Below, one piece after another: positions 15,079 to 61,343 of a DNA stretch of 64,000 nucleotides. The translations under genes and the position numbers were made by a program. The stretch spans positions 1 to 64,000 of the forward strand of contig NZ_JAEPPI010000001.1 of NCBI RefSeq assembly GCF_017641085.1. The letters are read 5' to 3'. The notes beneath the pieces were generated by a model that searched no databases, was not told the DNA's origin, and was given only the letters and a program-made list of their open reading frames with translations. This DNA comes from Gracilimonas sp. (GTDB lineage: Bacteria; Bacteroidota; Rhodothermia; Balneolales; Balneolaceae). Position 1 is the stretch's first letter, and the number at the start of each line of letters is the position of its first letter.

Positions 15079-15240
15079 AGGTGTTAGGGGCAAGGTTTTA
15101 GTTGTTAGGTTTTAGTGGTTCTTTAAATTGCCTTGACACTGCTAAAAGATTAGTACTAGAAAGTTAATGTGAAGACTTTTCGCTTACGATCCACATGCTC
15201 CACTAAAACCTAACACCTTGTCCCTAAAACCTATAACCTA
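15079..15240. repeat. Intergenic inverted repeat, GTTAGGTTTTAG word family, copy 1
   Basis: This fills the gap between two convergent genes. The left arm (to 15118) and right arm (15200-15240) share a perfect 16-base inverted match (TGTTAGGTTTTAGTGG at 15103-15118; complement at 15200-15215). Both arms continue with slight variants of the same 8-base word (GGTTTTAG, GGTGTTAG, GGTTATAG). The spacer is about 80 bases. The right arm holds the complete 17-mer shared with the copies at 32624, 54938 and 55378. Confidence 0.85.
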
Positions 15241-15244
15241 TAAC

Positions 15245-17878
15245 CTAATTCTCCCTGTTAATCGTCCAGCAGCGAAGGCCTTCTCTTGTTTGAGCAATCA
15301 GTTCTTTTTGTCCATCACCGTTTAAATCTGTAATAATCGGATACTTCATTCCGGATGTGGGTATTCCAAATAAACGTTCTCCGGTCAGCACTTCCCAGGC
15401 ATAAAGCCGGCCGAACTCAGCCAATGCAACCAGCTCAAGAGTGTTATCCGAATTTATATCGATAAGTTGCGGAGCAAATGTTGTGGAAGCAGGCTGACCG
15501 AGACTTTTTGTAAACCGGAGCTCTCCTTCCTTGTTGTATAAGAACAACGACCCATTTAAACTTTGGGTAATCAGTAAGTCATTCCGATAAAACCCGGTGC
15601 TGTCTCTGAGCAAAATGTTCTCCCGATAGTCAACGGATGAAAGCTCATTATTGGCTATGTAGAGTGAACGTATGGAAACGGAATCTTCAGAAATAGTAGT
15701 TGCCAGAGAATCACTGAAAACCGGATTAATCCCTAACGAATAAAGATAGCCATCAGCTGCACTGGCGGTTACCTGGTTTTCGAAAACGAGTGGGGAGTGG
15801 GTGAATCGAGCATTCACAAATTGTGGATATCCCGGGCGCGTGTTTCCACTTCTCAACCAGCTATGTAAGGCATTTTCAGAAAAAGCCCAGACCGACCAAA
15901 CATCATCCAGAAGTGAAAATACCGGTTGTGACTGAACAGTTGCATTGGTGTTTTGAGGCCATCCGCGTACGTTTTCACCTCTCCCGTCCAGAACATGAAC
16001 TTTCCTATCTTCGGTGGCTACGACAATTTCAGGGACACCGTTTCTAAGAACATCCTGAACTAAAATAGGAGCTGTAATTGGCTCGTTCATTTCAAGCGGG
16101 AAACGCGGAAGCAGGTTTCCGTTCTCGTTCCAGGCAAAGATTTTAGAGCCGGCCGCCAGGAAAATGATTTGTTGCCCGTTTCCGTACCAATCGTATAATT
16201 GAGGACCTCCAATGGGTGCGAGTCCATCGGTTGATGTTTGCATAGCAATGGTGCCGTCCAAAGCAAGAGCCATCACCCGGCCGTCCTGAGTTGAGAAAAT
16301 GATTTCATCCGTACTGCTTCCAACTAAATCACCTAACACCGGTTTGCCGCTTAGCTCAAAATTGGATAGCGGCATGACCCATAATTCTTCATATGGCAGG
16401 CTCGACCCTTCTTTTGAGTAGGTGTTCAGCGTCAGGTTTATTGCATTGTTTTGGGTAGTCATCGTCATCGTTGTGATGTCGAAGCGACTGAGTAAACCGG
16501 CAACAGAAGTCTCCGTTTTCACATAGGGCCGGATGAATTGGAGAAAGTCGTTTGAGGCCGACCATACAAATCCACTCACTTCCTCAGGCAGGTTATCTCG
16601 TACATTTGAATAGGTTTCATCATAATAGATAACCCGCCGGCGGATTCGATCTGCATTCACGCTTTCAGCCAGTCCTTTTCGCTTTGCGATAACCACTATA
16701 TCATTTGAAAAGGCAAGGTAAAAATCCCGCAGCGTGCTCATTTCAGATCCGATCAGCTTACCCATCACGCTGCTGCTGATTTGATACGTATTATCCTGAA
16801 AATTAATCAGTCCATCGCGTACCAACCTATTGAGTTGGCTCCGGAAAGAATTTCGGTCTTTAAGCTTTCGCATAACCAAAAACTCGCCGGTTGAGAGTAG
16901 CCCGGATTCCGGGAAAGCCTCGAAAGCAAATTCTGATGCCAGAGTGTTAGCCAGGTTTTGGTACAGGCTGATATTCTGAAGCAATACCGAATCAAGTTTA
17001 GTGGTGATGGTATTGGTTGGCTCTACAGGAACCGAAACGGGAGGTAGCCTAAACAGGGCAAAAGCTGCAGCGTTGCTTGCTATATGCCGATCGAGAGTGA
17101 TGGGTTTGTTCTCATAAGAGAAAGCGTCCACTAAAATAGAATGCCGGTCTTCGGCCAGTTCGATATTTCCGGAAAGCTGGATATTATTGGTAGAGTCTGA
17201 ATAGGAATCGAAAGTAAAGGCTGCGGGTTGAGTGCCCGAGAAAGAAGACATTACGGCCGGGCGATTAATGACCGTTGCAAACTGTTCAACCCAATGATCT
17301 AATTGCGGGGTATTCAACACAAGCGTGGAAGCCGGAGGGTTTTGCTGAAGCTGAATCGAAGGTTTATCACCGAGAAAAGCACGTAATGAGTTTTCTATAA
17401 TCAGGCTCGATTCCGACAAAATAAGATAGTCATTTACCTGTGCTGCATAAATTTCCGTCTTATTGAAGAATAATTTATGAATGATGAACCCTTTAAATTC
17501 GTAATTATTCTGAGTGAACGGCTGATAAAACCTGGATGCCCATTGGCTCAAATCTGAGGAAGATGAACCCGTAATCCACAAAAAATTGGAGTGGAGGGAG
17601 GTAGCCGGATACAGAGCCACCGCTTTTATACTTAAGGGGTTATCCATTTCAGCATCGATGCCGGCCACTTGCTGCAGGGCCGATGGCGTTAAATCATCAA
17701 GGTAAGTGGCATACTCTTTGGTAATGATTTCTTGTACATTCAGTCCATCCTCGGGTACTACCAAAAAAGTGGCTTCCTCAGGAATTAATGCAAACCATTC
17801 ATTATCCGGTGCGGATGAGCAGGCAGCTATAAGGCTAATGGAAAAAAAAGTAATTAAGAGTTGAAAAAGGCGTTGCAT
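15245..17878 (-). CDS. Lipoprotein with C-terminal beta-propeller (PQQ/FG-GAP-like)
   Basis: The 877-residue product carries a lipoprotein signal (LFQLLITFFSISLIAAC, lipobox cysteine followed by SSAPDNEW). Residues to about 500 form an unrecognised region that resembles DUF3352-like surface proteins. The last 370 residues hold propeller-like blades (DEIIFSTQDGRVMALAL, PEIVVATEDRKVHVLDG, LELVALAEFGRLYAWEV, DLNGDGQKELIAQ) with FG-GAP-type DLNGDGQ loops. It is probably anchored in the outer membrane or periplasm. ATG at 17878 is preferred to the TTG just before it. The gene is divergent from the BatA-like gene; its role is unknown. Confidence 0.65.
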   Translation of the reverse strand: MQRLFQLLITFFSISLIAACSSAPDNEWFALIPEEATFLVVPEDGLNVQEIITKEYATYLDDLTPSALQQVAGIDAEMDNPLSIKAVALYPATSLHSNFLWITGSSSSDLSQWASRFYQPFTQNNYEFKGFIIHKLFFNKTEIYAAQVNDYLILSESSLIIENSLRAFLGDKPSIQLQQNPPASTLVLNTPQLDHWVEQFATVINRPAVMSSFSGTQPAAFTFDSYSDSTNNIQLSGNIELAEDRHSILVDAFSYENKPITLDRHIASNAAAFALFRLPPVSVPVEPTNTITTKLDSVLLQNISLYQNLANTLASEFAFEAFPESGLLSTGEFLVMRKLKDRNSFRSQLNRLVRDGLINFQDNTYQISSSVMGKLIGSEMSTLRDFYLAFSNDIVVIAKRKGLAESVNADRIRRRVIYYDETYSNVRDNLPEEVSGFVWSASNDFLQFIRPYVKTETSVAGLLSRFDITTMTMTTQNNAINLTLNTYSKEGSSLPYEELWVMPLSNFELSGKPVLGDLVGSSTDEIIFSTQDGRVMALALDGTIAMQTSTDGLAPIGGPQLYDWYGNGQQIIFLAAGSKIFAWNENGNLLPRFPLEMNEPITAPILVQDVLRNGVPEIVVATEDRKVHVLDGRGENVRGWPQNTNATVQSQPVFSLLDDVWSVWAFSENALHSWLRSGNTRPGYPQFVNARFTHSPLVFENQVTASAADGYLYSLGINPVFSDSLATTISEDSVSIRSLYIANNELSSVDYRENILLRDSTGFYRNDLLITQSLNGSLFLYNKEGELRFTKSLGQPASTTFAPQLIDINSDNTLELVALAEFGRLYAWEVLTGERLFGIPTSGMKYPIITDLNGDGQKELIAQTREGLRCWTINREN

Positions 17879-25684: not shown

Positions 25685-26970
25685 TTAAAAAGATTACTCC
25701 GGCTTCATCCTTAAAAGGTGAACTCACATTACCTCCAGACAAATCAATCTCTCAACGCGCTGCCATTTTTTCGCTATTGCATGATGGCGTTTCGGAGGTG
25801 AAAAATTATTCACGGGCCCAGGATCCACAAAGCACATTAAGCTGCGTCCAGCAACTTGGAGCTGAAGTGAAAGAGGAAAACGGCACTCTCATTATAAAAG
25901 GAACAGGAAGAAAGAACATCAAAACCCCGGTTAAAGATCTTGATTGTGGTAATTCGGGTACAGCCATGCGCTTGCTTTCGGGAGTATTAGTTGGAGCCAA
26001 AATTTCAGCGAAGCTGGTAGGGGATGAATCCCTTTGCGGGCGCACTATGACACGAATTATCAAACCGCTGGAGAAAATGGGGGCACATATCCTGGCTCGG
26101 AACGGTGCTTATGCTCCGCTTTTCATTAACAGGAATGAACCGCTGAAGCCCTTGCAGTTTGAACTTCCGATTCCGAGTGCCCAGTTAAAGTCGTGTGTGT
26201 TATTAGCCGGTTTATTTGGAGAAGAGTTAACGCAGGTTATTGAAATTTTGCCAAGTCGTGATCATACTGAAAGGTTACTGAATCTCGACCAAAAAGTGGT
26301 TCAGGATCGCAAAATCATTTCGGCAAGTCTGGCGGATGAGATTCCCAATCAAAGCTACACCATACCGGGAGATTTTTCTGCCGCGGCTTTCTGGCTGGTT
26401 GCCGGCGCTATTCAAAATGATGCGGAAATTAAGATCGGGAACGTGGGACTGAACCCTTCCCGAAATGCCCTGCTGGATATTTTAGATGAGATGGGCGCAG
26501 ACATCACCATAGAAAATGAGCGTATGGAAGGTGCCGAACCGGCCGGGGATATTATCGTGAAAGGTTCGGATTTGAAAGCGATTGAGATCGACCCAAAGAT
26601 GATCCCCAACTGTATCGATGAACTGCCCATACTATCGGTGGCTATGCTTTTTGCAGAAGGTACTTCCACTATATCGGGCGCGGAAGAACTTCGCCACAAA
26701 GAAACCGACCGTATCATGGCAATGGCTAACATGCTGAATGCCGTGGGGGCCAACTTCGAGGAAAAAGAAGATGGTTTAATTATTCATGGAGACCCGGATT
26801 TTTCATTTTCCTCCGCGAATTTTGAATCCTATCATGACCATCGTATTGCCATGGCTGCTGCTGTTCTATCACTTAAAGGAAGTCAAGAGAGCTCAATCAA
26901 AGATGCCGAAAGTGCGGCCGTTTCCTATCCCGGCTTTTGGGAAGATCTTGGTGATTTGGTGATAGAGTGA
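25681..26970 (+). CDS. aroA: 3-phosphoshikimate 1-carboxyvinyltransferase (EPSP synthase)
   Basis: The 429-residue enzyme joins shikimate-3-phosphate and phosphoenolpyruvate in the chorismate pathway. Family motifs are present: LPPDKSISQRAAIFSLL, LDCGNSGTAMRLLSG, SLCGRTMTRII, PNCIDELPILSV, ELRHKETDRI, and DHRIAMAAAVL. Length is typical. It begins inside the end of the TPR gene. The last codons (GTGATTTGGTGATAGAGTGA) already belong to the GTGAT word repeat that fills the following gap. Confidence 0.97.
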   Translation: MIKKITPASSLKGELTLPPDKSISQRAAIFSLLHDGVSEVKNYSRAQDPQSTLSCVQQLGAEVKEENGTLIIKGTGRKNIKTPVKDLDCGNSGTAMRLLSGVLVGAKISAKLVGDESLCGRTMTRIIKPLEKMGAHILARNGAYAPLFINRNEPLKPLQFELPIPSAQLKSCVLLAGLFGEELTQVIEILPSRDHTERLLNLDQKVVQDRKIISASLADEIPNQSYTIPGDFSAAAFWLVAGAIQNDAEIKIGNVGLNPSRNALLDILDEMGADITIENERMEGAEPAGDIIVKGSDLKAIEIDPKMIPNCIDELPILSVAMLFAEGTSTISGAEELRHKETDRIMAMANMLNAVGANFEEKEDGLIIHGDPDFSFSSANFESYHDHRIAMAAAVLSLKGSQESSIKDAESAAVSYPGFWEDLGDLVIE

Positions 26971-27103
26971 TAAAGTGATGAGTGATGAGTGAGTTTTGAC
27001 TTATCACAGTTCAATTCAAATCATTAAAATAGAATGACCTGAAACAAGCTTCATTGTTTGAATGATCTACTTCATCACCTAATCACCAAATCACTTTATC
27101 ACT
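26950..27103. repeat. Intergenic inverted repeat, GTGAT word family, copy 1
   Basis: Starting inside the end of aroA, the left arm repeats a 7-8 base word (GGTGATTT, GGTGATAG, AGTGATAA, AGTGATG, AGTGATG). The right arm (27071-27103) carries the complement (ATCACC, AATCACCA, AATCACTT, TATCACT). AGTGATAAAGTGAT (26966-26979) is perfectly inverted at 27090-27103. A second copy of the same type follows the methyltransferase gene at 53374. The gap between arms includes an ATGACCTGAAACAAG stretch like the CCTGAAACAAG motif at 32724. Confidence 0.8.
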
Positions 27104-27167
27104 AAACCAACCCCACTCCTGACAATACGTCCGTCAATACGTCAGTTTTCCCACCGCCCTCCCTGAT

Positions 27168-27659: not shown

Positions 27660-27719
27660 GCCACGAAAGCTCTAAACCACGAAAGAAAAATTAATTTCGT
27701 GTTTTAGAGTTTTTGTGGC
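27660..27719. repeat. Intergenic hairpin, CACGAAA word family
   Basis: Between hsp20 and dnaK a 60-base near-perfect inverted repeat runs from GCCAC (27660) to GTGGC (27719). The inner arms CTCTAAACCACGAAA and TTTCGTGTTTTAGAG pair except for a single mismatch. A related single copy (GCGCTTTCGTGCTTTAGTGG) is at about 32840-32860. It may separate hsp20 transcription from dnaK, but there is no T-run. Confidence 0.8.
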
Positions 27720-29723: not shown

Positions 29724-29759
29724 GTAAAGTATAGCTCACTTACTCACGCAGATAAATCT

Positions 29760-46538: not shown

Positions 46539-46547
46539 AGTGATAGT

Positions 46548-47643: not shown

Positions 47644-47744
47644 AGTACCCCCGGCAGGGATAAATCTTATTACATTTTATTTCACACCTTTTTTCTCAAA
47701 AGGCCTTTAATTGCAGGCCGTAAAATGTCAATAGCTTTATCAAA

Positions 47745-50303: not shown

Positions 50304-50315
50304 TTAATAAGGGAT

Positions 50316-50819
50316 CTACCCTCGGGTAAGACGGGAAATCAGGTCTTTATGTTTGGAGAACTTACGGCTTAAACTTTCTTCTGCAGCCAATTCAAAATCT
50401 TGGAAATCAAAGCCGGGAGAAACGGTGCAGCCCACAAATGAATAGCTGTCCGCTTGGTTAACTTCAGCTGCAAACCAATACTCTTTGGGTACGGTGAATT
50501 GAGGAAGTTCTCCGTTGTCAAAATCCGACCCAACCACTTGCTTAGAGTAGTTTCCATCCGGACTGATCATGTGAATAGTAAGCGGCGAACCCTGATAAAA
50601 GTGCCACATCTCATCCTGCCTGATTCTGTGAAAAGCAGAGAAAGTATCTGAGGTCAAAAGAAAATAAATGCCGGTGCAGTAGTTGCGGCTTCCCTCAAAC
50701 AAATCCGGGAAAACGGTTTCGGGAATAACACCCTCACTACGATACGTCTCTTTGAAATACCCGCCTTCCGGATGTTTTTGAAGGTCGAAGCGGGTGATTA
50801 ATTTTTCTATTGTGGACAT
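50316..50819 (-). CDS. Cupin DUF985 family protein
   Basis: The 167-residue protein has the DUF985/cupin_5 pattern: LQKHPEGGYFKETYRSE, CTGIYFLLTSDTFSAFHRIRQDEMWHFY with a metal-site His and Glu, LTIHMISPDGNYS and VGCTVSPGFDFQDFEL. The function is not established; some members are annotated as sugar or metal-binding proteins. It is 12 bases from the tail of the CotH gene, on the opposite strand. Confidence 0.85.
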   Translation of the reverse strand: MSTIEKLITRFDLQKHPEGGYFKETYRSEGVIPETVFPDLFEGSRNYCTGIYFLLTSDTFSAFHRIRQDEMWHFYQGSPLTIHMISPDGNYSKQVVGSDFDNGELPQFTVPKEYWFAAEVNQADSYSFVGCTVSPGFDFQDFELAAEESLSRKFSKHKDLISRLTRG

Positions 50820-50836
50820 TATGTTTATTAGAATAC

Positions 50837-50870
50837 CACGTAGAGATACAAAACCTTGTGGCTCTGCGTG
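50837..50870. repeat. Intergenic hairpin, CACGTAGAG...CTCTGCGTG
   Basis: CACGTAGAG (50837-50845) pairs with CTCTGCGTG (50862-50870), 9 bp with one wobble, between the cupin gene and the aldehyde dehydrogenase gene. It has the same layout as the other word-type hairpins. Confidence 0.6.
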
Positions 50871-50887
50871 TTTTCAATAGGAAAATA

Positions 50888-52396
50888 TTACACATCAAAA
50901 TCGATGCCTTGTGCCAGTGGTAGAGAATCTCCCCAGTTCATGGTGTTGGTCTGGCGGCGCATGTACGCTTTCCAGGCATCAGAACCGGATTCCCGTCCAC
51001 CGCCTGTTTCTTTCTCTCCACCAAAGGCACCACCAATTTCAGCCCCGCTGGTACCAATATTGATGTTGGCAATTCCACAATCCGAACCTCGGGCACTCAG
51101 GAAGTTTTCAGCTTCCCGCATGTTCAGGGTAAACATAGCCGAACTGAGTCCCTGTTTCACACCGTTGTGCAGCTCGATGGCTTCATCCAGCGTTTTGTAT
51201 TTGATGAGGTAAAGGATAGGCGCAAAAGTCTCTTCCTGAACAATATCATAATGATTTTTAACTTCAGCGATCGCTGGTTTCACATAAAAACCATCTTCGT
51301 CCAGAGGCTCGCCACCGGTTATAACTTTGCCACCTTCTTTTTCAATTTCCTTCAGGGCATTCTGCATTTGGTCAACGGCGCCCTGATCAATCATCGGCCC
51401 AACCAGCGTGTTTTCGTCAAGCGGATCGCCAATGGAGATATTTTCATAAATACTGAGCAGTCGTTCTTTTACCTGATCATAAACTGATTCCTGAACGATA
51501 AGCCGGCGTGTGCTTGTGCAGCGCTGGCCGCAAGTTCCAACGGCTCCAAAAACGGTAGCCCGGATCGCCATTTCAATATCAGCATCCTCGGAAATGATGA
51601 TGGCATTGTTTCCTCCCAGCTCAAGAATGCTTTTTCCTAAACGTCCGCCCACGGTTTTGGCTACTTCTTTACCCATTCGGATAGAACCGGTTGCTGAAAT
51701 AAGTGGGATTCGTTCGTCTTCGGTCATCCATTCGCCTACTTCGCGGTCTCCGGTAACCAGGTTAAAGATCCCTTCAGGCAGGTTATTTTCTTTGAGCACT
51801 TTGGCTACAATCTTTTGTACGGCAACTCCGCAAAGGGGCGTTTTTTCGGAGCCTTTCCAAATCATTACGTTTCCGCACACGGCAGCAATCATGGCGTTCC
51901 AGCTCCACACGGCAACCGGAAAGTTGAACGCGGAGATAATAGCCACAATCCCCAGCGGATGCCATTGCTCATACATACGGTGCTGAGGGCGCTCGCTGTG
52001 CATGGTTTTACCGTACAGCATGCGCGACTGCCCCACTGCAAAATCACAGATATCAATCATTTCCTGGACTTCACCGAGCCCTTCCTGGTAGATTTTACCC
52101 ATTTCGTAAGTAACCAGTTTGCCAAGTGGTTCTTTGTACTCACGTAATTTCTGGCCAATCTGGCGCACGATCTCACCGCGCTGAGGAGCCGGCATTTGAC
52201 TCCAAACTTTATATGCTTTCTGAGCTTCTTCCACAACCTGATCGTATTGCTCGCGGGTAGTTACCCCCACAGTAGCTATTTTATCACCATTGGTTGGCGT
52301 GAAGCTGCTGATGGTTTCTTTGCTCTCGTGATGTTTACGTCCGGTACTGGTTCCGGGATTAATACCTTCAATGCCTAATGTCTTCAGAAATTCCAT
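50888..52396 (-). CDS. Aldehyde dehydrogenase of the ALDH7 (aminoadipate-semialdehyde) type
   Basis: The 502-residue NAD-dependent enzyme matches antiquitin-like ALDH7: VWSWNAMIAAVCGNVMIWKG, ELGGNNAIIISEDADIEMAI, GAVGTCGQRCTSTRRL with the catalytic Cys, and ANINIGTSGAEIGGAFGGEKETG near the C-terminus. The usual substrate is alpha-aminoadipate or piperideine-6-carboxylate semialdehyde in lysine breakdown. No lysine pathway genes are next to it. ATG at 52396. Confidence 0.9.
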   Translation of the reverse strand: MEFLKTLGIEGINPGTSTGRKHHESKETISSFTPTNGDKIATVGVTTREQYDQVVEEAQKAYKVWSQMPAPQRGEIVRQIGQKLREYKEPLGKLVTYEMGKIYQEGLGEVQEMIDICDFAVGQSRMLYGKTMHSERPQHRMYEQWHPLGIVAIISAFNFPVAVWSWNAMIAAVCGNVMIWKGSEKTPLCGVAVQKIVAKVLKENNLPEGIFNLVTGDREVGEWMTEDERIPLISATGSIRMGKEVAKTVGGRLGKSILELGGNNAIIISEDADIEMAIRATVFGAVGTCGQRCTSTRRLIVQESVYDQVKERLLSIYENISIGDPLDENTLVGPMIDQGAVDQMQNALKEIEKEGGKVITGGEPLDEDGFYVKPAIAEVKNHYDIVQEETFAPILYLIKYKTLDEAIELHNGVKQGLSSAMFTLNMREAENFLSARGSDCGIANINIGTSGAEIGGAFGGEKETGGGRESGSDAWKAYMRRQTNTMNWGDSLPLAQGIDFDV

Positions 52397-52452
52397 AACG
52401 ATATTTTAGCTCTTATTTTTGGGTGAAGATAGGGAAGTGAGTAGTCAGAAAA

Positions 52453-52604
52453 CAGAACTCAGAATTCAGGAGGAGAAAATCTAAAAAGTCTTTCTCCATT
52501 AAACCTTTCCAGGGTTACTACACTTTCCCGGAATCAGGCTCATTTGGTTTAACCCTGGAAAGGTTGACTATAAGGGAAGACTGTATTCTAACTGCTGAGT
52601 TCTG
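52453..52604. repeat. Nested double inverted repeat in the divergent gap upstream of the methyltransferase gene
   Basis: Inner pair: AACCTTTCCAGGGTT (52502-52516) with its perfect complement AACCCTGGAAAGGTT (52551-52565). Outer pair: CAGAACTCAG (52453-52462) with CTGAGTTCTG (52595-52604), inside the larger GGGAAG...CTTCCC ends. It ends only 12 bases before the methyltransferase ATG. Confidence 0.75.
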
Positions 52605-52616
52605 TATTCTTCCCGC

Positions 52617-53390
52617 ATGAGAAACGCATCAAATAATGAAATTAAATTACTTCGGAAGTTAGCCCGCAAAAAGTATCGCGAGAAAGAGCAGCGGTTCGTG
52701 GTTGAGGGAGAGCGCGCCGTTGAGCAGGTGCTTGAAAATGGGTTGGTGGAAGTGGAGACTGTGTTTGTGGTTGAAGGAAAAGCTGTCAGTGATGAATGGT
52801 CAGCTTTCAGTGCTTCTATAGAAGCGGATGTGTTTGATGAAGTGGCAGATACCGAAAATCCACAGGGGATTCTGGCGGTTTGTAAGATGGCGGATGAAAT
52901 CAGTACCAATGAATTGAGAGAGAAAAGCGGAATCATCGTTGCAACTGATGCAATCCAGGACCCGGGAAATATGGGGACGATTCTGCGCACAGCAGCCTGG
53001 TTCGGAGCAAAAGCATTGATCGCCGGAAAGGGAAGCGTAGATGTGTATCACCCCAAAGTAGTGCGAAGTACGGCCGGAGCCACCGGAAGCATTCCGGTAT
53101 TATCAGGCGAACTGGAAGAAATATTCACAGAACTTGAAGCAAACGGATGGCAAATTTTGCTGCTTGATGGTGGGGCAGAAAGTGTAAACCTGAGATCGGT
53201 TCAACCCGCAGAAAAAACAATCATTGTTGTTGGGAATGAAGGGAATGGAATCAGTGAAAGCTTATTGCATTCCAAAAGAAAGAAAGTAAGGATAGAGTCG
53301 GCACCAGGGCAGGATAAGGTTGAGAGCCTGAATGCAGCTATTGCAGTTAGTATTGCCTTGTGGGGGTTAAGTGATATGGTGATAAAGTGA
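52617..53390 (+). CDS. TrmH/SpoU family RNA 2'-O-methyltransferase
   Basis: The 257-residue protein shows the SpoU knot motifs NPGNMGTILRTAAWFG-type (PGNMGTILRTAAWFGAKA), IVVGNEGNGISE and VESLNAAIAVSIAL. The N-terminal substrate-binding part (EKEQRFVVEGERAVEQ) is of the RlmB/YsgA class. The target (23S rRNA or tRNA) is not evident. Its last codons (GTGATATGGTGATAAAGTGA) form part of the GTGAT-type repeat. Confidence 0.9.
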   Translation: MRNASNNEIKLLRKLARKKYREKEQRFVVEGERAVEQVLENGLVEVETVFVVEGKAVSDEWSAFSASIEADVFDEVADTENPQGILAVCKMADEISTNELREKSGIIVATDAIQDPGNMGTILRTAAWFGAKALIAGKGSVDVYHPKVVRSTAGATGSIPVLSGELEEIFTELEANGWQILLLDGGAESVNLRSVQPAEKTIIVVGNEGNGISESLLHSKRKKVRIESAPGQDKVESLNAAIAVSIALWGLSDMVIK

Positions 53391-53455
53391 TGAAGTGGAG
53401 CTTTTTAAAAAATCACCGTATCACTTTAACACCCTATCACCCTATCACCAAACCC
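53374..53455. repeat. Intergenic inverted repeat, GTGAT word family, copy 2
   Basis: Left arm AGTGATATGGTGATAAAGTG (continuing GATGAAG) starts inside the stop region of the methyltransferase gene. The right arm (53411-53455) has ATCACCG, TATCACTTT, AACACCC, TATCACCC and TATCACCA, the complement of the same words. It is the same design as the element after aroA at 26950. Confidence 0.75.
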
Positions 53456-53587
53456 ATCCATTAAAATTCCATTAAATAAGGGCTGTATATTGCAAATGGT
53501 GTGGGCTTTAGCTTTATTATAAAAGCCGCTCATACAATCATCTACCCGGCTGGTACATATGGCAAGACTAATCAAACATCCTCATCT

Positions 53588-54919
53588 ATGCCTAAGAAGA
53601 AATCGAAGAAGATCTTCGTCCTCGACACCTCCGTTCTACTTTACGATTATGAAGCTGTCCGAAACTTTGAAAAAAACGATGTAGCCATCCCCATCACGGT
53701 TCTTGAAGAGCTGGATACTTTTAAAAAGGGGAACAACGTCATTAACCTGCATGCGCGTGAATTTATCCGGTACCTGGATGGGATTTCGGATGCCAATATG
53801 CTGCAAAACTGGATTCCGCTAAACGGAAGGTCGCATGGAAATCTCAGGGTGATAACGAACGGTGAAAACTCCATGGATGCCACCAAAGTGTACGGCTCCG
53901 ATAAGAATGACCACCGGATTATTAATGCGGCGCTCCACCTGAAAGAAGAAAATCCAAGCCAGCGGGTGATATTGGTTTCCAAGGATATCAACCTGCGTCT
54001 GAAAGCCCGGGCATTGAACCTGGAGTCGGAAGATTATGAGACCATTCGGATTCAGGATATTGAGCATTTGTATAAAGGCAAAACGTCTCTCGAAATTGAA
54101 GATCCTTCAGTGGTCAGTAAGTTTTATGAAAAAGGGAAGATAAAGCCTGAAGAACTTATGGAAGCCGACCCGATTTGTAACCATTATTACATAATGAAAA
54201 GTCACGGTTCTTCGGGGCTTGGATGGTATAATGCGAAGAGCAAAAAAGTAGAAGTGGTGGAAAAGAACAATGCCTATGGCATTCAGCCAAAAAATGCAGA
54301 ACAGACTTTTGCTATGCATGCCCTTCAGAACCCGAATATTATGTGTTGTACCATTACCGGAGCTGCCGGAACGGGAAAAACACTGTTGGCTTTGGCAAGT
54401 GCACTGGAGCAGCGGAGCAATTTCAAGCAAATTTATCTGGCCCGGCCCATTGTTCCCCTAAGTAATAAGGACATTGGCTTTCTTCCCGGCGATGCCAATG
54501 CCAAAATTGACCCCTACATGCAGCCGCTTTGGGATAACCTGAGCTTCATTAAAAATCAGTATAAGGAAACGAGTAAGCCATTTAAGAAGATTGATGAAAT
54601 GCTGCAGACTGAGAAGCTGCGCATTGTGCCGCTGGCTTATATCCGGGGACGAAGTTTATCCAACGTGATTTTTATCATTGATGAGGCTCAGAATTTAACC
54701 CCTCATGAAGTGAAAACCATCATCACCCGGGCGGGCGAAAACACCAAAGTCGTGTTTACCGGGGATATCTTTCAAATCGATACGCCTTACCTGGATGCTC
54801 AAAGTAACGGACTCAGTTACCTCGTGGACCGCATGAATAACAATGAAATGTATGCCCACATCAACCTGGAGAAAGGGGAGCGCTCGGAACTGGCTAACCT
54901 GGCTTCAAAACTGTTGTAG
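53588..54919 (+). CDS. PhoH-like ATPase with N-terminal PIN domain
   Basis: From ATG at 53588 the product is 443 residues. The N-terminal PIN/NYN-like RNase domain begins KIFVLDTSVLLYDYEA and contains a conserved VLVSKDINLRLKARAL-like part. The C-terminal PhoH domain has Walker A GAAGTGKTLLAL, the LARPIVPLSNKDIGFLPGD segment and Walker B VIFIIDEAQNLTP. Such PIN-PhoH proteins are probable RNA helicase/RNases. A GTG upstream (53501) was rejected because the leader carries no family sequence. Confidence 0.92.
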   Translation: MPKKKSKKIFVLDTSVLLYDYEAVRNFEKNDVAIPITVLEELDTFKKGNNVINLHAREFIRYLDGISDANMLQNWIPLNGRSHGNLRVITNGENSMDATKVYGSDKNDHRIINAALHLKEENPSQRVILVSKDINLRLKARALNLESEDYETIRIQDIEHLYKGKTSLEIEDPSVVSKFYEKGKIKPEELMEADPICNHYYIMKSHGSSGLGWYNAKSKKVEVVEKNNAYGIQPKNAEQTFAMHALQNPNIMCCTITGAAGTGKTLLALASALEQRSNFKQIYLARPIVPLSNKDIGFLPGDANAKIDPYMQPLWDNLSFIKNQYKETSKPFKKIDEMLQTEKLRIVPLAYIRGRSLSNVIFIIDEAQNLTPHEVKTIITRAGENTKVVFTGDIFQIDTPYLDAQSNGLSYLVDRMNNNEMYAHINLEKGERSELANLASKLL

Positions 54920-55000
54920 GTGTTAGGGGAAGTTTTTAGGTGTTAGGTTTTAGTGTTTTGTTCAAGAACAACTAAAACCTAACACCTTGCCCCAAAAACT
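54918..55000. repeat. Intergenic inverted repeat, GTTAGGTTTTAG word family, copy 3
   Basis: AGGTGTTAGGTTTTAGT (54938-54954) is inverted exactly at 54971-54987 around a 16-base loop that itself contains TGTTC / GAACA. Flanks repeat the words (GTGTTAGGGGAAG, ACACCTTGCCCC). It fills the gap between convergent genes. Confidence 0.88.
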
Positions 55001-55002
55001 AC

Positions 55003-55245
55003 CTACTTCTCCGGACTTAGCAGCTCTACGTGAAAACGAAACTTCTCGCTTTCCAGAGACATGGTGTCGTAAAGATCTTCGATTACTTCAAAAACCGTTT
55101 TGGGAGCTCCGATAATGGTTGTAGATAAATAGCCAACCTCTATTTCTACATCATATTGAGCCAGGTGCTCCAGCAATTCCTGTACTTTTTCTCGGGGATC
55201 ATCTTCAGATAATGGGATGTACGTAAGCTGGGCAATAGTTTTCAT
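55003..55245 (-). CDS. Small thiamine-binding-like (DUF77/YkoF-type) protein
   Basis: The 80-residue protein shows the DUF77/MTH1187 pattern: AQLTYIPLSEDDPREKVQEL, YDVEIEVGYLSTTIIGAP and a C-terminal strand KFRFHVELLS. Members bind thiamine or its pyrimidine part. The match is weak in length and key residues, so the call is tentative. It is flanked by repeat copies 3 and 4 on either side. Confidence 0.5.
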   Translation of the reverse strand: MKTIAQLTYIPLSEDDPREKVQELLEHLAQYDVEIEVGYLSTTIIGAPKTVFEVIEDLYDTMSLESEKFRFHVELLSPEK

Positions 55246-55375
55246 AAATGAACTAATGATTTTATTTCAAAGTAAACGTTCACCTGAAAATAACGCAGAT
55301 TTGGGTAAGAGGCTAACGAAACCTCCGATAATACATTCGTGGGAGTAAAATAAGTTTGTGCGTATTAAGAAAATT

Positions 55376-55443
55376 TTAGGTGTTAGGTTTTAGTTGTTTT
55401 TTAATGAAAACACTAAATCCTAAAACCTTGCACCTAACACCTA
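55376..55443. repeat. Intergenic inverted repeat, GTTAGGTTTTAG word family, copy 4
   Basis: The left arm AGGTGTTAGGTTTTAGTTG (from 55378) contains the exact 17-mer. The right arm (55407-55443) is less exact: CACTAAATCCTAAAACCTTG then CACCTAACACCT, so two word variants pair in a shifted register. It is in the divergent gap before the OPT transporter gene. Confidence 0.82.
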
Positions 55444-55528
55444 TCAACTCACTCGCATCAAACATTATGCATAGAAGGTGAAAAATCGTTATTTACGGCA
55501 AACCCAATTTTTAGCCTAAATCGAACCT

Positions 55529-57577
55529 ATGAGTAAGAAAGGATTTACCCCGTTTGTTTCTGCCGAAGACGACCTTCCCCAAATTACCGTCAAAGCCGTT
55601 GTGCTTGGTTTTGTTTTATCAGCAATCCTGGCCGGCGCCAATGCTTATTTGGGCCTAAAAGTAGGAATGACGGTGTCCGCTTCCATTCCCGCAGCCGTTA
55701 TTTCGATGGCAGTGTTGAAGCTGTTTAAAGAGTCTAATATCCTCGAAAACAATATCGTGCAAACGGCAGCATCGGCAGGGGAATCGCTGGCGGCAGGGGT
55801 TATTTTTACCCTTCCGGCACTTATTCTACTAAAGTACTGGCTGGATTTTCCATTTATGGAAACGGCGGCCATCGCGATGTTTGGCGGGATTTTGGGGGTT
55901 CTGTTCACCATTCCATTACGGCGAGCTTTAATTGTGGAAAGCGAACTACAGTTTCCGGAAGGGGTAGCTACGGGTGAGGTTCTGAAGGCAGGAACCGAAG
56001 GCGGAGCCGGAATTAAAACGATTATTCAAGCGGGTGTTGCCGCTGCATTGTTTAAGCTTAGTCAGACCGGGTTAAAGGTTTTTGCAGGATCTGTAGGTGG
56101 TTCGGTCAAGGCCGGAAAGTCTATTTTTGGGATGGGTGCCGATTTATCGGTGGCGCTCTTAGCGGTGGGTTATATCGTTGGACTGAATATTGCGGTGCTG
56201 ATTTTTGCAGGAGGTTTGATTTCCTGGCTGTTTGGAATCCCGATTTATATGGCAGTTACAAGCCCGGAAGAAATTTCAGCTATTGTGGGCGCTGCTGAAG
56301 GCTATGATGCCGCTCTTGCCATTTGGAGTCAGAAAATCCGTTACTTGGGTGTGGGCGCTATGGTTGTTGGTGGTGTATGGGCTCTTATTTCTCTGGCCAA
56401 GCCACTGGTGGACGGGATTAAATCTTCCATGGCAGCAGTGAAGGAGTTAAAAAACAACGGAAGCGGTAATATTCCCCGCACAGAACTGGATACTCCAATC
56501 AATATTGTTGTGTGGGGAATTTTAGGGTTATCTATCCCGATTTTTATCGTGTTTACCTACGTGATTGATATCGAGCATCTGGCTGTGAGCGGGGGAGCTT
56601 ATTGGACGGCCATTACATTCGGAGTGGTGTTTTCGCTGTTTGCAGGATTTTTGTTTTCATCGGTCGCCGGGTACATGGCCGGTTTGGTGGGCTCATCCAA
56701 TAACCCGATTTCAGGGGTGACTATAGCTACTGTGCTTGCTACGTCTCTGTGTTTGCTGGCGATTTTGGGAAGTCAGGTTGACTTCACCGCTGATATGGAA
56801 AAAGCAACCACAGCTGCTGCGGCAGCAATTATTGTTGGAGCCATGATTGCCTGTGCTGCGGCCCTTGCCGGGGATAACCTTCAGGATTTAAAAGCCGGAC
56901 AGCTGGTGGGAGCTACTCCTTACAAACAGCAGATTATGCAGGTTGTGGGTGTGGTAGCTGCTGCTTTGGTGATTGCACCTATACTCAGCCTTTTATTTAA
57001 TGCCTATGGCCTGGGCGGTGTTTTCCCGCGGGAGGGGATGAATCCCGAAGAAATGCTGACAGCTCCACAGGCCACGCTGATGCAGTCGGTAGCTGAAGGC
57101 GTGTTTGCGCGAAACCTGGAATGGGGGATGATTATCATTGGAGGTCTGATCGCTGTTGCGATTATCATTCTGGATCAGATCCTGAAACGAAAAGGAACGG
57201 AATTCAGAACGCCGGTTTTGGCCGTGGCGGTTGGTATTTATCTGCCGGTAGAGTTATCGGTTCCTATTTTTTTAGGAGGAATGATTGCCTGGACGGCAGC
57301 CCGCTTTGTCAAAAATCGTGCTATTGAAAATGGGGAAAGTCCCGAAGAGGCAGAAACTACAGCCGAGCGTAAAGGCTTGTTGTTTTCATCCGGGTTGATC
57401 ACAGGTGAGGCTTTGATTGGTATTATTCTGGCTATCCCCTTTGCTTTATTCGAAAGCACGGACGCCCTGCGCATTATGCCGGAAGGTTTTGGCTGGTTAA
57501 CGGATGTGTTAGGTGTGGGAGCGGCTGTCTGCTTCATGATCTGGCTGTACAAAGTGGCCGTGAAGAAAGGAGAATAG
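55529..57577 (+). CDS. OPT family oligopeptide transporter
   Basis: The 682-residue protein has about 14-16 membrane helices and OPT motifs: NAYLGLKVGMTVSASIPAAV near the N-terminus, SELQFPEGVATGEVL, and internal SSNNPISGVTIATVL. It probably imports small peptides by proton symport; the substrate cannot be predicted. It is convergent with murI. Confidence 0.9.
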   Translation: MSKKGFTPFVSAEDDLPQITVKAVVLGFVLSAILAGANAYLGLKVGMTVSASIPAAVISMAVLKLFKESNILENNIVQTAASAGESLAAGVIFTLPALILLKYWLDFPFMETAAIAMFGGILGVLFTIPLRRALIVESELQFPEGVATGEVLKAGTEGGAGIKTIIQAGVAAALFKLSQTGLKVFAGSVGGSVKAGKSIFGMGADLSVALLAVGYIVGLNIAVLIFAGGLISWLFGIPIYMAVTSPEEISAIVGAAEGYDAALAIWSQKIRYLGVGAMVVGGVWALISLAKPLVDGIKSSMAAVKELKNNGSGNIPRTELDTPINIVVWGILGLSIPIFIVFTYVIDIEHLAVSGGAYWTAITFGVVFSLFAGFLFSSVAGYMAGLVGSSNNPISGVTIATVLATSLCLLAILGSQVDFTADMEKATTAAAAAIIVGAMIACAAALAGDNLQDLKAGQLVGATPYKQQIMQVVGVVAAALVIAPILSLLFNAYGLGGVFPREGMNPEEMLTAPQATLMQSVAEGVFARNLEWGMIIIGGLIAVAIIILDQILKRKGTEFRTPVLAVAVGIYLPVELSVPIFLGGMIAWTAARFVKNRAIENGESPEEAETTAERKGLLFSSGLITGEALIGIILAIPFALFESTDALRIMPEGFGWLTDVLGVGAAVCFMIWLYKVAVKKGE

Positions 57578-57591
57578 TTAGCTATAAATGA

Positions 57592-57629
57592 TCAGCTGTC
57601 AGTTTCGGGGATAGAAAATTGACAGCTGA
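57592..57629. repeat. Intergenic hairpin, TCAGCTGTC word family
   Basis: TCAGCTGTCAGTTT pairs with AAATTGACAGCTGA (9 perfect pairs, then 5 with one wobble). It fills the gap between convergent OPT and murI genes, so it may terminate both. Further variant words (CTGTAAGCTGAGAGC) follow. Confidence 0.75.
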
Positions 57630-57650
57630 ATCCTGTAAGCTGAGAGCTTT

Positions 57651-58460
57651 TCACCCCAAACTTACAACTTCAACACCGTTCAGGCTGCGGCCTAAAAACC
57701 GTTCGGCCAGTTCATGAAAACGCTGGGGGCGATCGCTCACGTAGCAACGGAACTCTCCACCGGATTCATTCAGCAAACCTAATTCATCCAGTTTGGCTTT
57801 TGCGGATTCTGCGATGGATTCTGCCGAGTCAATAATTTCAATGTTTCCATCCTTCAGAACCTTAGGAATAATGTCCTTAAACAGCGGGTAATGTGTGCAT
57901 CCCAAAATAAGAGATTGGATTCCGCTTTCATCAAAATGATCCAGGTAATGATGTAAAGTCTGCAGGGCCACATCGTTATCAATCCAGCCTTCCTCGGCCA
58001 ATGGGACTAAAATAGGGCAAGCTTGTTGCGTTACCGTTATGGTTGGGTCATAAGCATGAATGGACTTGGAATACGCCTGAGAGTTAACGGTGGCTAAGGT
58101 GCCAATCACCCCAACATGATCATGATTTGGCAGAGAAACCGCATTTTTAGTTCCGGCAGTTATTACGTCTAAAACAGGAATGTCGCCGGCAGCCTGTATA
58201 ATCTCTTCCTTGGCCGAGGCCGAAACTGTATTACAGGCAATCAGAATCATCTTTACGCCACGCTTCAATAAAAAATGGGTAATTTCAAGAGCATAGGAAC
58301 GCACGGTTTCTTCCGATTTGATACCATAAGGAACCCGGGCTGTATCACCGAAATAAATGATATCTTCGTTGGGTAAAGCATCAATCACGGCCTTGGCTAC
58401 GGTAAGTCCGCCAATACCTGAGTCAAAAATTCCAATGGGTGCGTTCTTTAAATCTTGCAA
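57651..58460 (-). CDS. murI: Glutamate racemase
   Basis: The 269-residue enzyme makes D-glutamate for peptidoglycan. It shows IGIFDSGIGGLTVAKAV, ACNTVSASA with one catalytic Cys and LGCTHYPLF with the second. The start is TTG (QDLKNAPIGIF). It is convergent with the OPT gene; a toxin-antitoxin pair lies upstream on the other strand. Confidence 0.95.
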   Translation of the reverse strand: MQDLKNAPIGIFDSGIGGLTVAKAVIDALPNEDIIYFGDTARVPYGIKSEETVRSYALEITHFLLKRGVKMILIACNTVSASAKEEIIQAAGDIPVLDVITAGTKNAVSLPNHDHVGVIGTLATVNSQAYSKSIHAYDPTITVTQQACPILVPLAEEGWIDNDVALQTLHHYLDHFDESGIQSLILGCTHYPLFKDIIPKVLKDGNIEIIDSAESIAESAKAKLDELGLLNESGGEFRCYVSDRPQRFHELAERFLGRSLNGVEVVSLG

Positions 58461-58569
58461 ATGAGTACCTGGTAGTGAATTATTTGTTGCCAGAAGGTAT
58501 TCAATTCTTAAATCTTAATACAAGGATTCGTAGATTGTTCCGAACAAATACCAAAGTAGTTATCAAATA

Positions 58570-58872
58570 ATGAAAATCGAAGAAATCCAAAATGATGAGC
58601 TCAAATCCGCCTGCGAAAAGTTTGGCGTACTCAGGCTCTATGTATTTGGGTCGGTTGCAGCAGGGCTGTCTGAGGACAATAGCGATATTGATTTTCTTGT
58701 TGAATTTAAAAGATCTGACTTTGCCGGAGCATTTGATCAGTTTATGGGATTGAAAAATAGACTTGAAGAAATCTACAACTGCCCTGTGGATTTGCTGACT
58801 ATGAAGAAGTTTCGAAATCCTGTATTTCATAAAGAAATTGATCGATCGAAATCATTGGTTTATGCCTCATAG
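58570..58872 (+). CDS. MntA-like minimal nucleotidyltransferase (antitoxin)
   Basis: The 100-residue protein has the polymerase-beta-type nucleotidyltransferase motif GS-x10-D-x-D: VFGSVAAGLSEDNSDIDFLV. In type VII toxin-antitoxin systems MntA transfers AMP to a tyrosine of HepT. It overlaps the next gene, consistent with a two-gene pair. It is a small mobile-type unit between housekeeping genes. Confidence 0.88.
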   Translation: MKIEEIQNDELKSACEKFGVLRLYVFGSVAAGLSEDNSDIDFLVEFKRSDFAGAFDQFMGLKNRLEEIYNCPVDLLTMKKFRNPVFHKEIDRSKSLVYAS

Positions 58873-59194
58873 TATCAGAAAGCTACTTATCGATATCGTT
58901 CTTTCCTGTGAAGAAATTACAGAATTCACGGAAGGCAAAAGGTTGGAAGATTTTCAAAACAACAGGATGCTACAGCTTGCTTTAGAAAGAGAGTTTGAAA
59001 TCATTGGCGAAGCCTTGTCGCGATTGTCAAGAATTGATGAAGATAATCTGGAACAGAAAATTCCTGAATATAGAAAAATCATTGATTTCAGGAATATTAT
59101 ATCCCACGGATATGATGTAATTGACGAATTGGCACTATGGGATTTTGTAAAGAATAAAGTTCCCGAACTGCTTGAGAAGACCAGAAATTATTAG
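58862..59194 (+). CDS. HepT-like (DUF86) ribonuclease toxin
   Basis: The 110-residue helical protein has the HepT signature R-x4-H-x-Y (RNIISHGY) near its C-terminus, the likely RNase active site and AMPylation tyrosine. The start ATG at 58862 overlaps mntA by 11 bases; an earlier TTG at 58838 is unlikely. The toxin acts on tRNA or other RNA in related systems. Confidence 0.88.
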   Translation: MPHSIRKLLIDIVLSCEEITEFTEGKRLEDFQNNRMLQLALEREFEIIGEALSRLSRIDEDNLEQKIPEYRKIIDFRNIISHGYDVIDELALWDFVKNKVPELLEKTRNY

Positions 59195-59210
59195 ACCCAA
59201 AACCTGTTTA

Positions 59211-61283
59211 ATGACATTACTTAGAATATTATTTCTGGCATTAATTCTTATCAACCCCGTTTTTGCTCAGGATATAGACACTCTCAAAGCCGATCTCGGA
59301 GATATTGTGGTAGTTGGTTATGAGGGGAACCGAAGCCTGATGGAGACACCCGGCGCCATCACCAATGTGAAGCCCGAACTTATCGGTGGATTTGATGAGG
59401 GATCTTTGCTGTATGGTTTGAATACAGTGCCCGGCGTTCGTATTGAACAGCGCGCCCCGGGAAGTTACCGGGTAGCCATACGCGGAAGTTCTCTGCGTGC
59501 TCCTTTTGGAGTCCGGAATGTGAAAATCTACTGGAATGGTATTCCATTTACGGAGCCTTCCGGAAGCACTTTCCTGAATCTTTTGGATGTGATTAATATG
59601 CAGGAAGTGGAAGTGATTAAAGGTCCGGCCGGTAGTATTTACGGAGCTGGAAACGGGGGAGCTCTTTTGCTGGAAAGCCGGCAGTCGAATCAAAATGAGG
59701 TGGGAGCAGGTTTGATGCTGGGTTCATACGGCATGCAGCGTTATACGGCTTATGCCCAAAATCAATTTGATGAAGGAAGCCTTCGGTTCAACTATTCCAA
59801 CCAGCATGCCGATGGATACCGGGATCAAACATTTTTCAACCGGCAGACGGCTGAGCTTTCCGGACGGTTTCAGCTGAATGACAGGCAGATCATTAAGACC
59901 AGTTTCCTGTATTCGGATCTGAACTACGGAATTCCGGGAGGTTTGACGCTGGAGCAATATCAAAATGATCCGAGTCAGGCACGGCCGGGAAACCCCTTTG
60001 TTCTGGGGAGCGTGGAATCGAATGCGAGTATTGATCAGCAATCTTTTTTAGCGGGCATTAGTCATGATGTGCAGATCACCGATGACATTTCAAATCTGAC
60101 TAATGTATATGGAACCTTCAGTGCCTTTGAAAATCCCTTCAATCTGGATTACAAAAAAGACAGCCGGAAATCGGGCGGTGGACGAACCCGCTTTTACTTT
60201 GACACGGATATCGGGGAGGTGAGAACGCGGTTTACGGTTGGGGGTGAATTTCAGGCGGCTAATTATGCGGCCCGAAATTTTGAAAATGACACCAGCAAAG
60301 TGGGCGCGTTAAACTTTGACGATGAAATTAAGATTGAATCTTCGTTGCTGTTCTTCAATACTGAAATGGACCTGCCCGCTGACTTTTATCTCACGGCCGG
60401 ACTCAGTTACAACCGGCTGGAATACAGTTTGAACCGCCTGGTTACGAATCTTCCCGGTGATACAACCGGGCTTGCGCGCAAAACTTTTGATCCGGAAATC
60501 ATCCCAAGAATTGGGTTGCTGAAGAAATTCAGCCCGGCGCTTTCCCTGCATGGGAGTATCAGCTATGGATTTTCACCCCCAACCATCGAAGAGTTCAGAA
60601 CCAATGAAGGCAGTATCGCTTTAGATTTAGAAGCGGAACAGGGAACCAATTTTGAAGTTGGGGCCCGTGGTACCGTTGTTAGCGCGCACTTTACTTACGA
60701 TGTTACAGCTTTCTATTTCAAGCTGGAAGAAACCATTGTACAGCAGCAGTCGGATCGTAATTCGACCGTTATTTTCAGAAATGCCGGGGCCACCGATCAG
60801 TATGGGGTGGAGCTGGCTGCCAACTGGCAAATGATTCGAAATCCGGCGGCCTTTCTCCAGCAACTTGATTGGAGCCTGTCGTACACCTACCACGATTTTG
60901 AATTTGTGAATTACGTGAAAGACGGAAATGATTATTCCGGCAATAAACTGACGGGCGTTGCTCCTCATACCGTTGTGTCAACGATTACAGCCCGAACGGA
61001 ACCCGGATTCTACGGGAACCTGTCCTATAACTTCACCGATGAAATTCCCCTGAATGATGCCAATTCCGTGTATTCCAACCCTTATCACCTGGTGCAGACC
61101 AAAGTGGGACTCAGAAAGGAACTCATCGACAACTGGACCTTCGATTTCTTTGTGGGGATAGACAACCTGCTGGATGAAAAGTACAGCCTGGGTAACGACC
61201 TGAATGCTTTTGGTGAACGCTACTACCAGCCGGCCGCTCCCCGAAACTGGTTTGGCGGGGTGAAGGTGAATGTTGAATTTTAA
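59211..61283 (+). CDS. TonB-dependent outer-membrane receptor
   Basis: The 690-residue protein has a signal peptide (TLLRILFLALILINPVFAQ), a plug domain (GDIVVVGYEGNRSLMETPGA, NTVPGVRIEQRAPGSYRVAI, VEVIKGPAGSIYGAGNGGAL) and a beta-barrel with an FGERYYQPAAPRNWFGGV end and final Phe. It has no N-terminal carboxypeptidase-like domain. The substrate may be a siderophore, vitamin or sugar; the sequence does not tell. ATG at 59211 is preferred to an upstream TTG that overlaps hepT. Confidence 0.92.
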   Translation: MTLLRILFLALILINPVFAQDIDTLKADLGDIVVVGYEGNRSLMETPGAITNVKPELIGGFDEGSLLYGLNTVPGVRIEQRAPGSYRVAIRGSSLRAPFGVRNVKIYWNGIPFTEPSGSTFLNLLDVINMQEVEVIKGPAGSIYGAGNGGALLLESRQSNQNEVGAGLMLGSYGMQRYTAYAQNQFDEGSLRFNYSNQHADGYRDQTFFNRQTAELSGRFQLNDRQIIKTSFLYSDLNYGIPGGLTLEQYQNDPSQARPGNPFVLGSVESNASIDQQSFLAGISHDVQITDDISNLTNVYGTFSAFENPFNLDYKKDSRKSGGGRTRFYFDTDIGEVRTRFTVGGEFQAANYAARNFENDTSKVGALNFDDEIKIESSLLFFNTEMDLPADFYLTAGLSYNRLEYSLNRLVTNLPGDTTGLARKTFDPEIIPRIGLLKKFSPALSLHGSISYGFSPPTIEEFRTNEGSIALDLEAEQGTNFEVGARGTVVSAHFTYDVTAFYFKLEETIVQQQSDRNSTVIFRNAGATDQYGVELAANWQMIRNPAAFLQQLDWSLSYTYHDFEFVNYVKDGNDYSGNKLTGVAPHTVVSTITARTEPGFYGNLSYNFTDEIPLNDANSVYSNPYHLVQTKVGLRKELIDNWTFDFFVGIDNLLDEKYSLGNDLNAFGERYYQPAAPRNWFGGVKVNVEF

Positions 61284-61343
61284 ATGATGAATGTTAAATG
61301 GAGCTTGCTCAAGCCCAATTTAACATTCAAAATTCATCATTTA
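61282..61343. repeat. Intergenic hairpin between convergent genes, AATGTTAAAT word family
   Basis: GAATGTTAAATGGAGCTT (61289-61306) pairs with AAGCCCAATTTAACATTC (61311-61328), 16 of 18 bases, with further matching flanks (AAATGATGA, TCATCATTT). It spans from the TonB receptor stop to the stop of the lamin-tail gene. Confidence 0.75.

Follow-up and report, generated by a model that had tools for sequence, protein, structure and literature searches.

The window analysed here is a 64 kb stretch of DNA (45% GC; positions 1 to 64,000 of contig NZ_JAEPPI010000001.1) on one of the 7 contigs of the 3.49-Mb genome of Gracilimonas sp. (G000). It contains the 3' part of a 23S rRNA gene (1-271), 5S and one tRNA; elsewhere, in the gaps between genes and in no case within a 23S helix, lie imperfect inverted repeats whose arms are mostly arrays of a short, drifting word. 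These word hairpins are the subject of this report. We compared them with the arms that flank two families of small genes, S23 (four-helix-bundle, PF05635), the protein of the 23S-rRNA intervening sequences (IVS), and GxxExxY (PF13366). The window hairpins (n = 15) were scored against both arm sets with 40 shuffles each; in the list below each arm score is followed by the shuffle maximum, and no strand is assigned to any entry.

15079-15246: TAGGT heptad hairpin, convergent gap, period 7; S23-type arms, 24 vs 19
26951-27106: GTGAT hairpin, co-directional gap, period 8, left arm entering a coding end; S23-type arms, 17 vs 13
27660-27719: CACGAAA hairpin, co-directional gap, period 8; GxxExxY-type arms, 12 vs 10 (S23, 7 vs 12)
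30076-30181: ATCCGTG hairpin, co-directional gap, period unclear; GxxExxY 15 vs 12, S23 13 vs 12
31203-31278: AATTTAAA heptad hairpin, convergent gap, period 7; neither arm set (S23, 12 vs 17)
32610-32700: TAGGT heptad hairpin, divergent gap, period 7; S23-type arms, 20 vs 14
36293-36359: GTGTTAAC hairpin, convergent gap, period 8; neither arm set, 10 vs 14
37068-37175: GTCATTCTGA hairpin, co-directional gap, no period, not a word array and set apart; neither arm set
52440-52612: CAGAA heptad hairpin, divergent gap, enclosing a palindrome (52502-52565); S23-type arms narrowly, 15 vs 14
53371-53452: GTGAT hairpin, co-directional gap, period 8, left arm coding the last residues and stop; S23-type arms narrowly, 15 vs 14
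54917-55004: TAGGT heptad hairpin, convergent gap, period 7; S23-type arms, 20 vs 17
55376-55446: TAGGT heptad hairpin, divergent gap, period 7; S23-type arms, 22 vs 16
57590-57645: CAGCTG heptad hairpin, convergent gap, period 7, pyrimidine-first arms; S23-type arms, 14 vs 11
61268-61348: GAATTTT heptad hairpin, convergent gap, period 7; S23-type arms narrowly, 12 vs 11

The best word period is 7 in 8/15 hairpins (15.1, 31.2, 32.6, 52.45, 54.9, 55.4, 57.6 and 61.3 kb) and 8 in four (27.0, 27.7, 36.3 and 53.4 kb), and it is unclear in the remaining three (30.1, 37.1 and 52.5 kb). The first-pass annotation of this DNA had reported hairpins of a single layout in at least fifteen gaps. The inverted repeats are present at the places that it named, but a recount gives about 14 gaps and the common layout did not hold: besides the differences in period, the strongest repeat of the 37.1 kb gap is an ordinary GC terminator (37206-37238), and at 52.5 kb an unrelated perfect palindrome sits inside the CAGAA hairpin. 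The window hairpins are thus not all of one kind. By our own reading, an arm reaches or enters the coding end and supplies the stop codon of the genes ending at 26970, 53390, 54919 and 61283, and likewise of the minus-strand gene ending at 15245; in the SpoU-family gene (Pfam) that ends at 53390, the word provides the final codons together with the stop, and these vary by species. Stop codons as the reason for the choice of words were rejected, since the CAGAA and CAGCTG words, inspected by eye, give no stop in the inward reading and the reason is therefore not general.

We scored the best inverted repeat in each of the 28 window gaps of at least 30 nt, with 8 dinucleotide shuffles per gap. 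Scores of at least 12 were found in 12/28 gaps and the shuffles never exceeded 11.5, placing the hairpins above chance matching. All 6 convergent gaps scored in the window carry an inverted repeat of 11.5-17.5; the 57.6 kb hairpin scores 11.5, and the one at 53.4 kb scores 9.0, or 16.0 when wider flanks are taken. Across 464 kb of G000, repeats of at least 12 occur in 13/37 convergent, 23/139 co-directional and 7/49 divergent gaps, with shuffles at about 1%, and in two relatives the corresponding counts are 13/35, 24/142 and 7/50, and 8/25, 19/151 and 9/55, all of these taking in ordinary GC terminators too. Furthermore, the RNA folds of ten window hairpins, a set without the 15.1 kb one, have z-scores of -3.7 to -8.8. 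At the gathering score, Rfam matched only rRNA and tRNA in the window, leaving the word hairpins without a match, and a terminator scan of 44000-63900, restricted to loops of 3-8, listed no T-run terminator at them.

Across phyla, word arms are associated with small open reading frames (ORFs). In G000, arms that a word scan had first scored as solitary turned out to flank S23 genes. Among 71 scorable S23 loci, examined with 350-nt flanks for inward inverted repeats of at least 15, such repeats were found at 47, compared with 1/142 displaced intervals in the same loci and 2/710 shuffles. Similarly, 14/25 GxxExxY loci carry inward repeats, compared with 0/50 displaced intervals and 0/250 shuffles. 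Control genes of 90-200 amino acids showed them at 4/269, three of the four being themselves S23 or GxxExxY genes; with the four S23/GxxExxY genes among the controls taken out, the figure is 1/265.

The S23 arms are heptad arrays, with identities of 0.62, 0.60 and 0.56 at lags 7, 14 and 21 (0.30 when shuffled) and a median length of 32 nt. Their 5' arm is G-rich, the GC skew being positive in 42/47, negative in 3 and zero in 2. The dinucleotide AG recurs in register at least three times in 31/47 left arms vs 5.1 in shuffles; aligning 36 arms on AG yields a TNAGNNN profile, in which A and G are high by construction, so that the test lies in comparing the register count with shuffles. Additionally, word similarity rises with the identity of the S23 proteins (rho 0.21, Mantel p 0.002, 47 loci; reversed-strand control 0.00). 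GxxExxY arms show weak periods of 8-9 (identity 0.37 vs 0.27-0.28). One contig of a Cloacimonadota genome (G309 contig C4, the genome of L112) has three S23 genes in a stretch of about 19 kb (70.7, 84.2 and 89.4 kb), which suggests local clusters.

Upon scoring the window hairpins against these arms, we observe that 9/15 (the four TAGGT, the two GTGAT, the CAGAA, the CAGCTG and the 61.3 kb hairpins) lie above all 40 shuffles for S23 arms, and in all nine the opposite strand scores lower. The 27.7 kb hairpin exceeds its shuffles for GxxExxY arms only, and the 30.1 kb hairpin for both sets, with GxxExxY the better. Neither an S23 nor a PF13366 ORF was found inside any window hairpin.

The handedness of the main words is fixed. 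Among the matches listed for the word AGGTGTTAGGTTTTAG in G000-G006 of ten genomes (G000 in part), we counted by hand 28 inward pairs (plus-then-minus within 200 nt) and 0 outward pairs, 10 of them in G003, 9 in G000, 3 each in G004 and G005 and 1 each in G001, G002 and G006, these sister genomes not being independent of one another. A strict GTGAT hairpin occurs inward in 4/296 genomes, all four of the same family, and outward in 0/296. CAGCTG words are the exception, and the TTTGAACC family, found in both orientations (3 in, 5 out), is therefore left out of the claim. Regular-expression word classes misassigned some rows (52397 as TAGGT), and class totals are not used. Separately, a TTTGAACCATGATTT inverted-repeat family on contig C1 of G000 (254.9, 260.3, 266.2 and 348.6 kb) occurs in both handednesses, unlike the word hairpins.

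One 22-mer of the TAGGT word, GGTTTTAGGTGTTAGGTTTTAG, recurs in many phyla. At least 110 stretches in the collection of genomes contain it, with a chance expectation of about 0.03 under uniform base composition that would be higher in low-complexity DNA. These stretches, many of them from metagenome-assembled genomes, include Cyanobacteria, Planctomycetota, Patescibacteria, Cloacimonadota, Acidobacteria, Bacteroidota, Clostridiales and others. In the 80 loci that were fetched, an inverted-repeat scan gave 62 repeats of at least 16 in 568 kb, several with other words. Within the phylum of G000, a three-unit TAGGT array is present in only 5/148 genomes. Carriage by phages or plasmids was rejected, the 22-mer being in 6 viral contigs and the plasmid matches to two hairpins being short (25 records at E 0.06 with 47% covered for one; one record at 3e-4 with 29% covered for the other).

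Next, we compared the orthologous region gap by gap in seven genomes of the same genus; over a longer stretch, 76/225 gaps of G000 could be paired with G003. In 90 inverted repeats from three genomes of the genus, a drifting word is repeated along the arms (identity at lag 7 of 0.46 vs 0.31), and the words turn over while their slots mostly stay. The convergent gap at 36295-36363 carries GTGTTAA in G000 and G003, ATTCGTTA in G004, GTGATTTG in G005, GGTGTTA in G001 and GTGATGA in G006, that is, five word variants across six genomes, with none or a short gap in G008 and G009. At 26971, GTGATAAA in G000 corresponds to GTGTTTAA in its near relative G003, the downstream sequence being nearly identical. 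The 31.2 kb gap measures 69 nt in five genomes with differing heptads, and the 52.5 kb gap holds the same word class in the seven genomes compared. The suggestion made from the sequence alone, that arms arise by repeated copying of one drifting word, is thus borne out in part: drifting arrays and changed words in orthologous gaps were found, and plain slippage is not supported as the full explanation, because the handedness of the main words is fixed, the 22-mer occurs in many phyla and arms of the same kind flank two ORF families.

Some slots also hold an ORF in one species and lack it in another. The S23 element at 383.8 kb in G003 has the same boundaries as the ORF-less CAGCT hairpin at 301.7 kb in G000, and the slot of the 53.4 kb hairpin is occupied in G008 by a TIGR02436 four-helix-bundle (S23-family) gene. 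For the G003 element at 262 kb, the G009 site retains arm-like sequence and looks like a remnant, and for that at 112 kb G009 has a 27-nt word-like gap. An S23 element with GAACA arms is common to G000, G003 and G009. Palindromes of other types occur in the same surroundings. In the gap orthologous to window positions 54920-55002, G009 and G004 have a GTCATTCAGAGCGATAGCGAAGAATC-type palindromic element inside, between remains of the TAGGT arms. On contig C1 of G000, CGTAGAGACGCAA-type palindromes are present at both 270.7 and 428.3 kb, with counterparts in G003 and G009, and the gap at 68148-68222 has one in G000 vs a CCAAGTA word array in G003.

Hairpins of this kind had been described as lacking a named family, a view that needs amending, as 23S-rRNA IVS and S23 elements are the nearest relatives. 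ORF-less IVS are known too, and excision by RNase III is a further trait of rRNA IVS. The accessible text on Coxiella describes an IVS with complementary termini that form a long, 28-bp stem, an S23 ORF, and GACAGAT heptamers in variable number before it (PMC4990558); its Discussion calls the function and origin of IVS unclear. The S23 ORF in the loop recurs here at 47/71 S23 loci and in the G008 slot, whereas the present hairpins lie outside rRNA genes, are mostly ORF-less and use many words per genome. In candidate phyla radiation bacteria, 23S_rRNA_IVP ORFs are reported in 16S and 23S insertions (PMC11270868, in part), and in what is accessible of a CRISPR-clustering paper the 23S rRNA IVP is named in a figure legend (PMC10910872). 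GxxExxY is mentioned in passing in the accessible text of PMC8934634 and PMC12085832. No paper that connects word hairpins between genes with S23 or GxxExxY turned up in the open-licence literature, which lacks most subscription journals, and this does not prove novelty. Of 53 papers that contain one of six exact word strings, the 15 listed look unrelated by their titles and the opening of their abstracts.

Heptamer repeats form a second comparison, and the short tandemly repeated repetitive (STRR) sequences of cyanobacteria are such repeats. They share with the window hairpins degenerate seven-base units in gaps, period 7 being the best in 8/15. TAACTGA repeats are described in Beggiatoaceae and Cyanobacteria (PMC4679880, accessible text) and GGGAATC or GGGGA(C/T)T repeats in PMC4692102 (likewise); in those texts they are direct repeats, and no S23 or GxxExxY link is made. 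In Moorena (L233, position 1326), two units of TCAGTTA, which is the reverse of TAACTGA, stand in an arm beside an S23 gene, and Omnitrophota S23 arms are GGGACTG-like. Repetitive extragenic palindromic (REP) sequences and their mosaic arrays (BIMEs) are likewise intergenic, downstream of genes and often in inverted pairs, and are discussed as RNA hairpins (PMC3733652, accessible text), but REPs have no word period and carry a GTAG or CGTC tag and an association with REP-associated tyrosine transposases (RAYTs), features not seen here. Miniature inverted-repeat transposable elements resemble the hairpins in having ORF-less paired-arm copies beside ORF-bearing elements; here, in contrast, there is no transposase, no target duplication was seen at two sites compared, neither of them a clean empty site, and the ends are not fixed in sequence. 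Intrinsic terminators also form a hairpin after the stop codon and are commoner in convergent gaps, whereas the word arms are AT-rich and imperfect, stand in divergent gaps too, and coexist with GC terminators such as that at 37206-37238. At 29750-29800, downstream of the gene that ends at 29723, the 8 genomes compared retain a canonical terminator-like hairpin, and the hairpins beyond it are not kept.

Two families of small genes in many bacterial phyla are flanked by paired word arms of the same kind, so most window hairpins look like gene-less representatives of a family that has had little recognition and is related to the insertions in ribosomal RNA genes. We give a probability of roughly 0.6 to the reading that the majority belong to a family of small elements akin to IVS, lack an ORF and sit outside rRNA genes. 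A full element would consist of a word arm, a small S23 (four-helix-bundle) ORF and an inverted word arm, with a parallel class bearing a GxxExxY ORF between its arms. Once transcribed, the element would fold with its arms paired as a stem and the ORF looped out, like the known 23S-rRNA IVS, and ORF-less forms would retain the stem alone. The latter may descend from ORF-bearing forms or be moved or maintained with their help; the S23 protein may recognise the word, and the stem at gene ends could act as a bidirectional terminator or 3'-end stabiliser. The hairpins may be described as elements of fast turnover with a possible further role as 3'-end hairpins; both their movement and their function are what we infer from these comparisons.

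Several observations weigh against this reading. The AATTTAAA (31.2 kb), GTGTTAAC (36.3 kb), GTCATTCTGA (37.1 kb) and AACCTTTCC (52.5 kb) hairpins, 4/15, match neither arm set, and two of them (31.2 and 36.3 kb) are word arrays; in three of the S23 matches (52.45, 53.4 and 61.3 kb) the margin is one point. By set, arms were found at 24/27 S23 loci from other phyla, a biased set since those genomes were picked for holding the TAGGT 22-mer, at 16/30 in a phylum sample not so chosen, and at 7/14 in G000, where the other 7/14 S23 genes fall below a score of 15. S23 is present in 116/148 genomes of the phylum, so its presence alone says little, and its co-occurrence with the 22-mer in 32/36 genomes is not evidence. 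A density comparison, too small to be decisive, gave 3 heptad repeats in 400 kb of five S23-rich genomes (one of the repeats a low-complexity case), 1 in 80 kb of G000 and 0 in 320 kb of four genomes lacking S23. At one site, an S23 match in G009 corresponds to an 87-nt gap with a hairpin in G003, with weak repeats on both sides (9.0, 9.5), and neither a clean empty site nor a target duplication was seen at the two sites compared. Finally, at 15.1 and 36.3 kb the corresponding gaps in G009 measure 16 and 15 nt and hold no hairpin, and the hairpins are therefore dispensable.

The strongest rival holds that STRR-like word arrays are made by the host through slippage and template switching and kept at gene ends as hairpins that terminate or protect RNA, with S23 and GxxExxY genes landing in the arrays or keeping them. 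The excess in convergent gaps (13/37 vs 7/49 divergent), slots that persist while words change, folds well below shuffles, and the quiet co-evolution of arms within one gap, 69 nt long in five species, all fit such arrays. They do not lead one to expect that the main words keep their handedness in divergent gaps too, that one word recurs in distant phyla, that arms stand at 47/71 S23 genes but 1/142 displaced intervals of the same loci, or that G009 lost hairpins without replacement, and we regard this explanation as rather unlikely. Mobilisation of REP-like palindromes by Y1 (RAYT-type) transposases would suit the four Y1_Tnp genes over cut-off in the genome and the nested palindromic families nearby, but eight palindrome patterns gave one match near those genes (the AACCCTTTTAGGGTT palindrome, L003) and the repeats seen there included no word arms, and we rejected this origin as very improbable. 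The writing of arms from a short template by a telomerase-like or diversity-generating-retroelement-like reverse transcriptase, with S23 as a relative of Avd, was set aside as equally improbable, given no RVT_1 match in the genome (98% complete), although S23 matches the Avd model weakly (2.6e-7, below cut-off) and PF05635 is likened to Avd, with homology stated, in the accessible text of PMC10053308.

The reading of the hairpins as ORF-less IVS-like elements leaves the mechanism first proposed for them partly supported, and it can be extended, speculatively, to a pan-bacterial class. The TRAP protein reads triplets. In the extension, a ring-forming S23 would read the AG-bearing heptads of each arm, roughly one to a subunit, in the way that TRAP does with triplets; each S23 lineage would have its own word, with ORF-less copies as satellites. 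The rRNA IVS, the STRRs of cyanobacteria and dispersed heptamer repeats would then all belong to one class, GxxExxY forming a second, parallel one. S23 is a homopentamer in the solved structure cited in PMC4990558 (accessible text). We regard this extension as possible and hold it tentatively.

The literatures on IVS elements and on heptamer repeats have run separately for decades, and the sequence link between word arms and S23 offers a candidate protein partner for both, together with a code open to testing (fixed handedness and an AG at every seventh base) and with natural experiments among sister genomes. It would also give a context to many genes of unknown function annotated as 'four helix bundle' or 'GxxExxY', and it calls for caution in that some coding ends and stop codons come from such elements. 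Elsewhere in the window, the small ORFs at 58460-59172 (58501-59194), for which the stretches fetched from nine relatives gave no match, look like a nucleotidyltransferase/HEPN pair.

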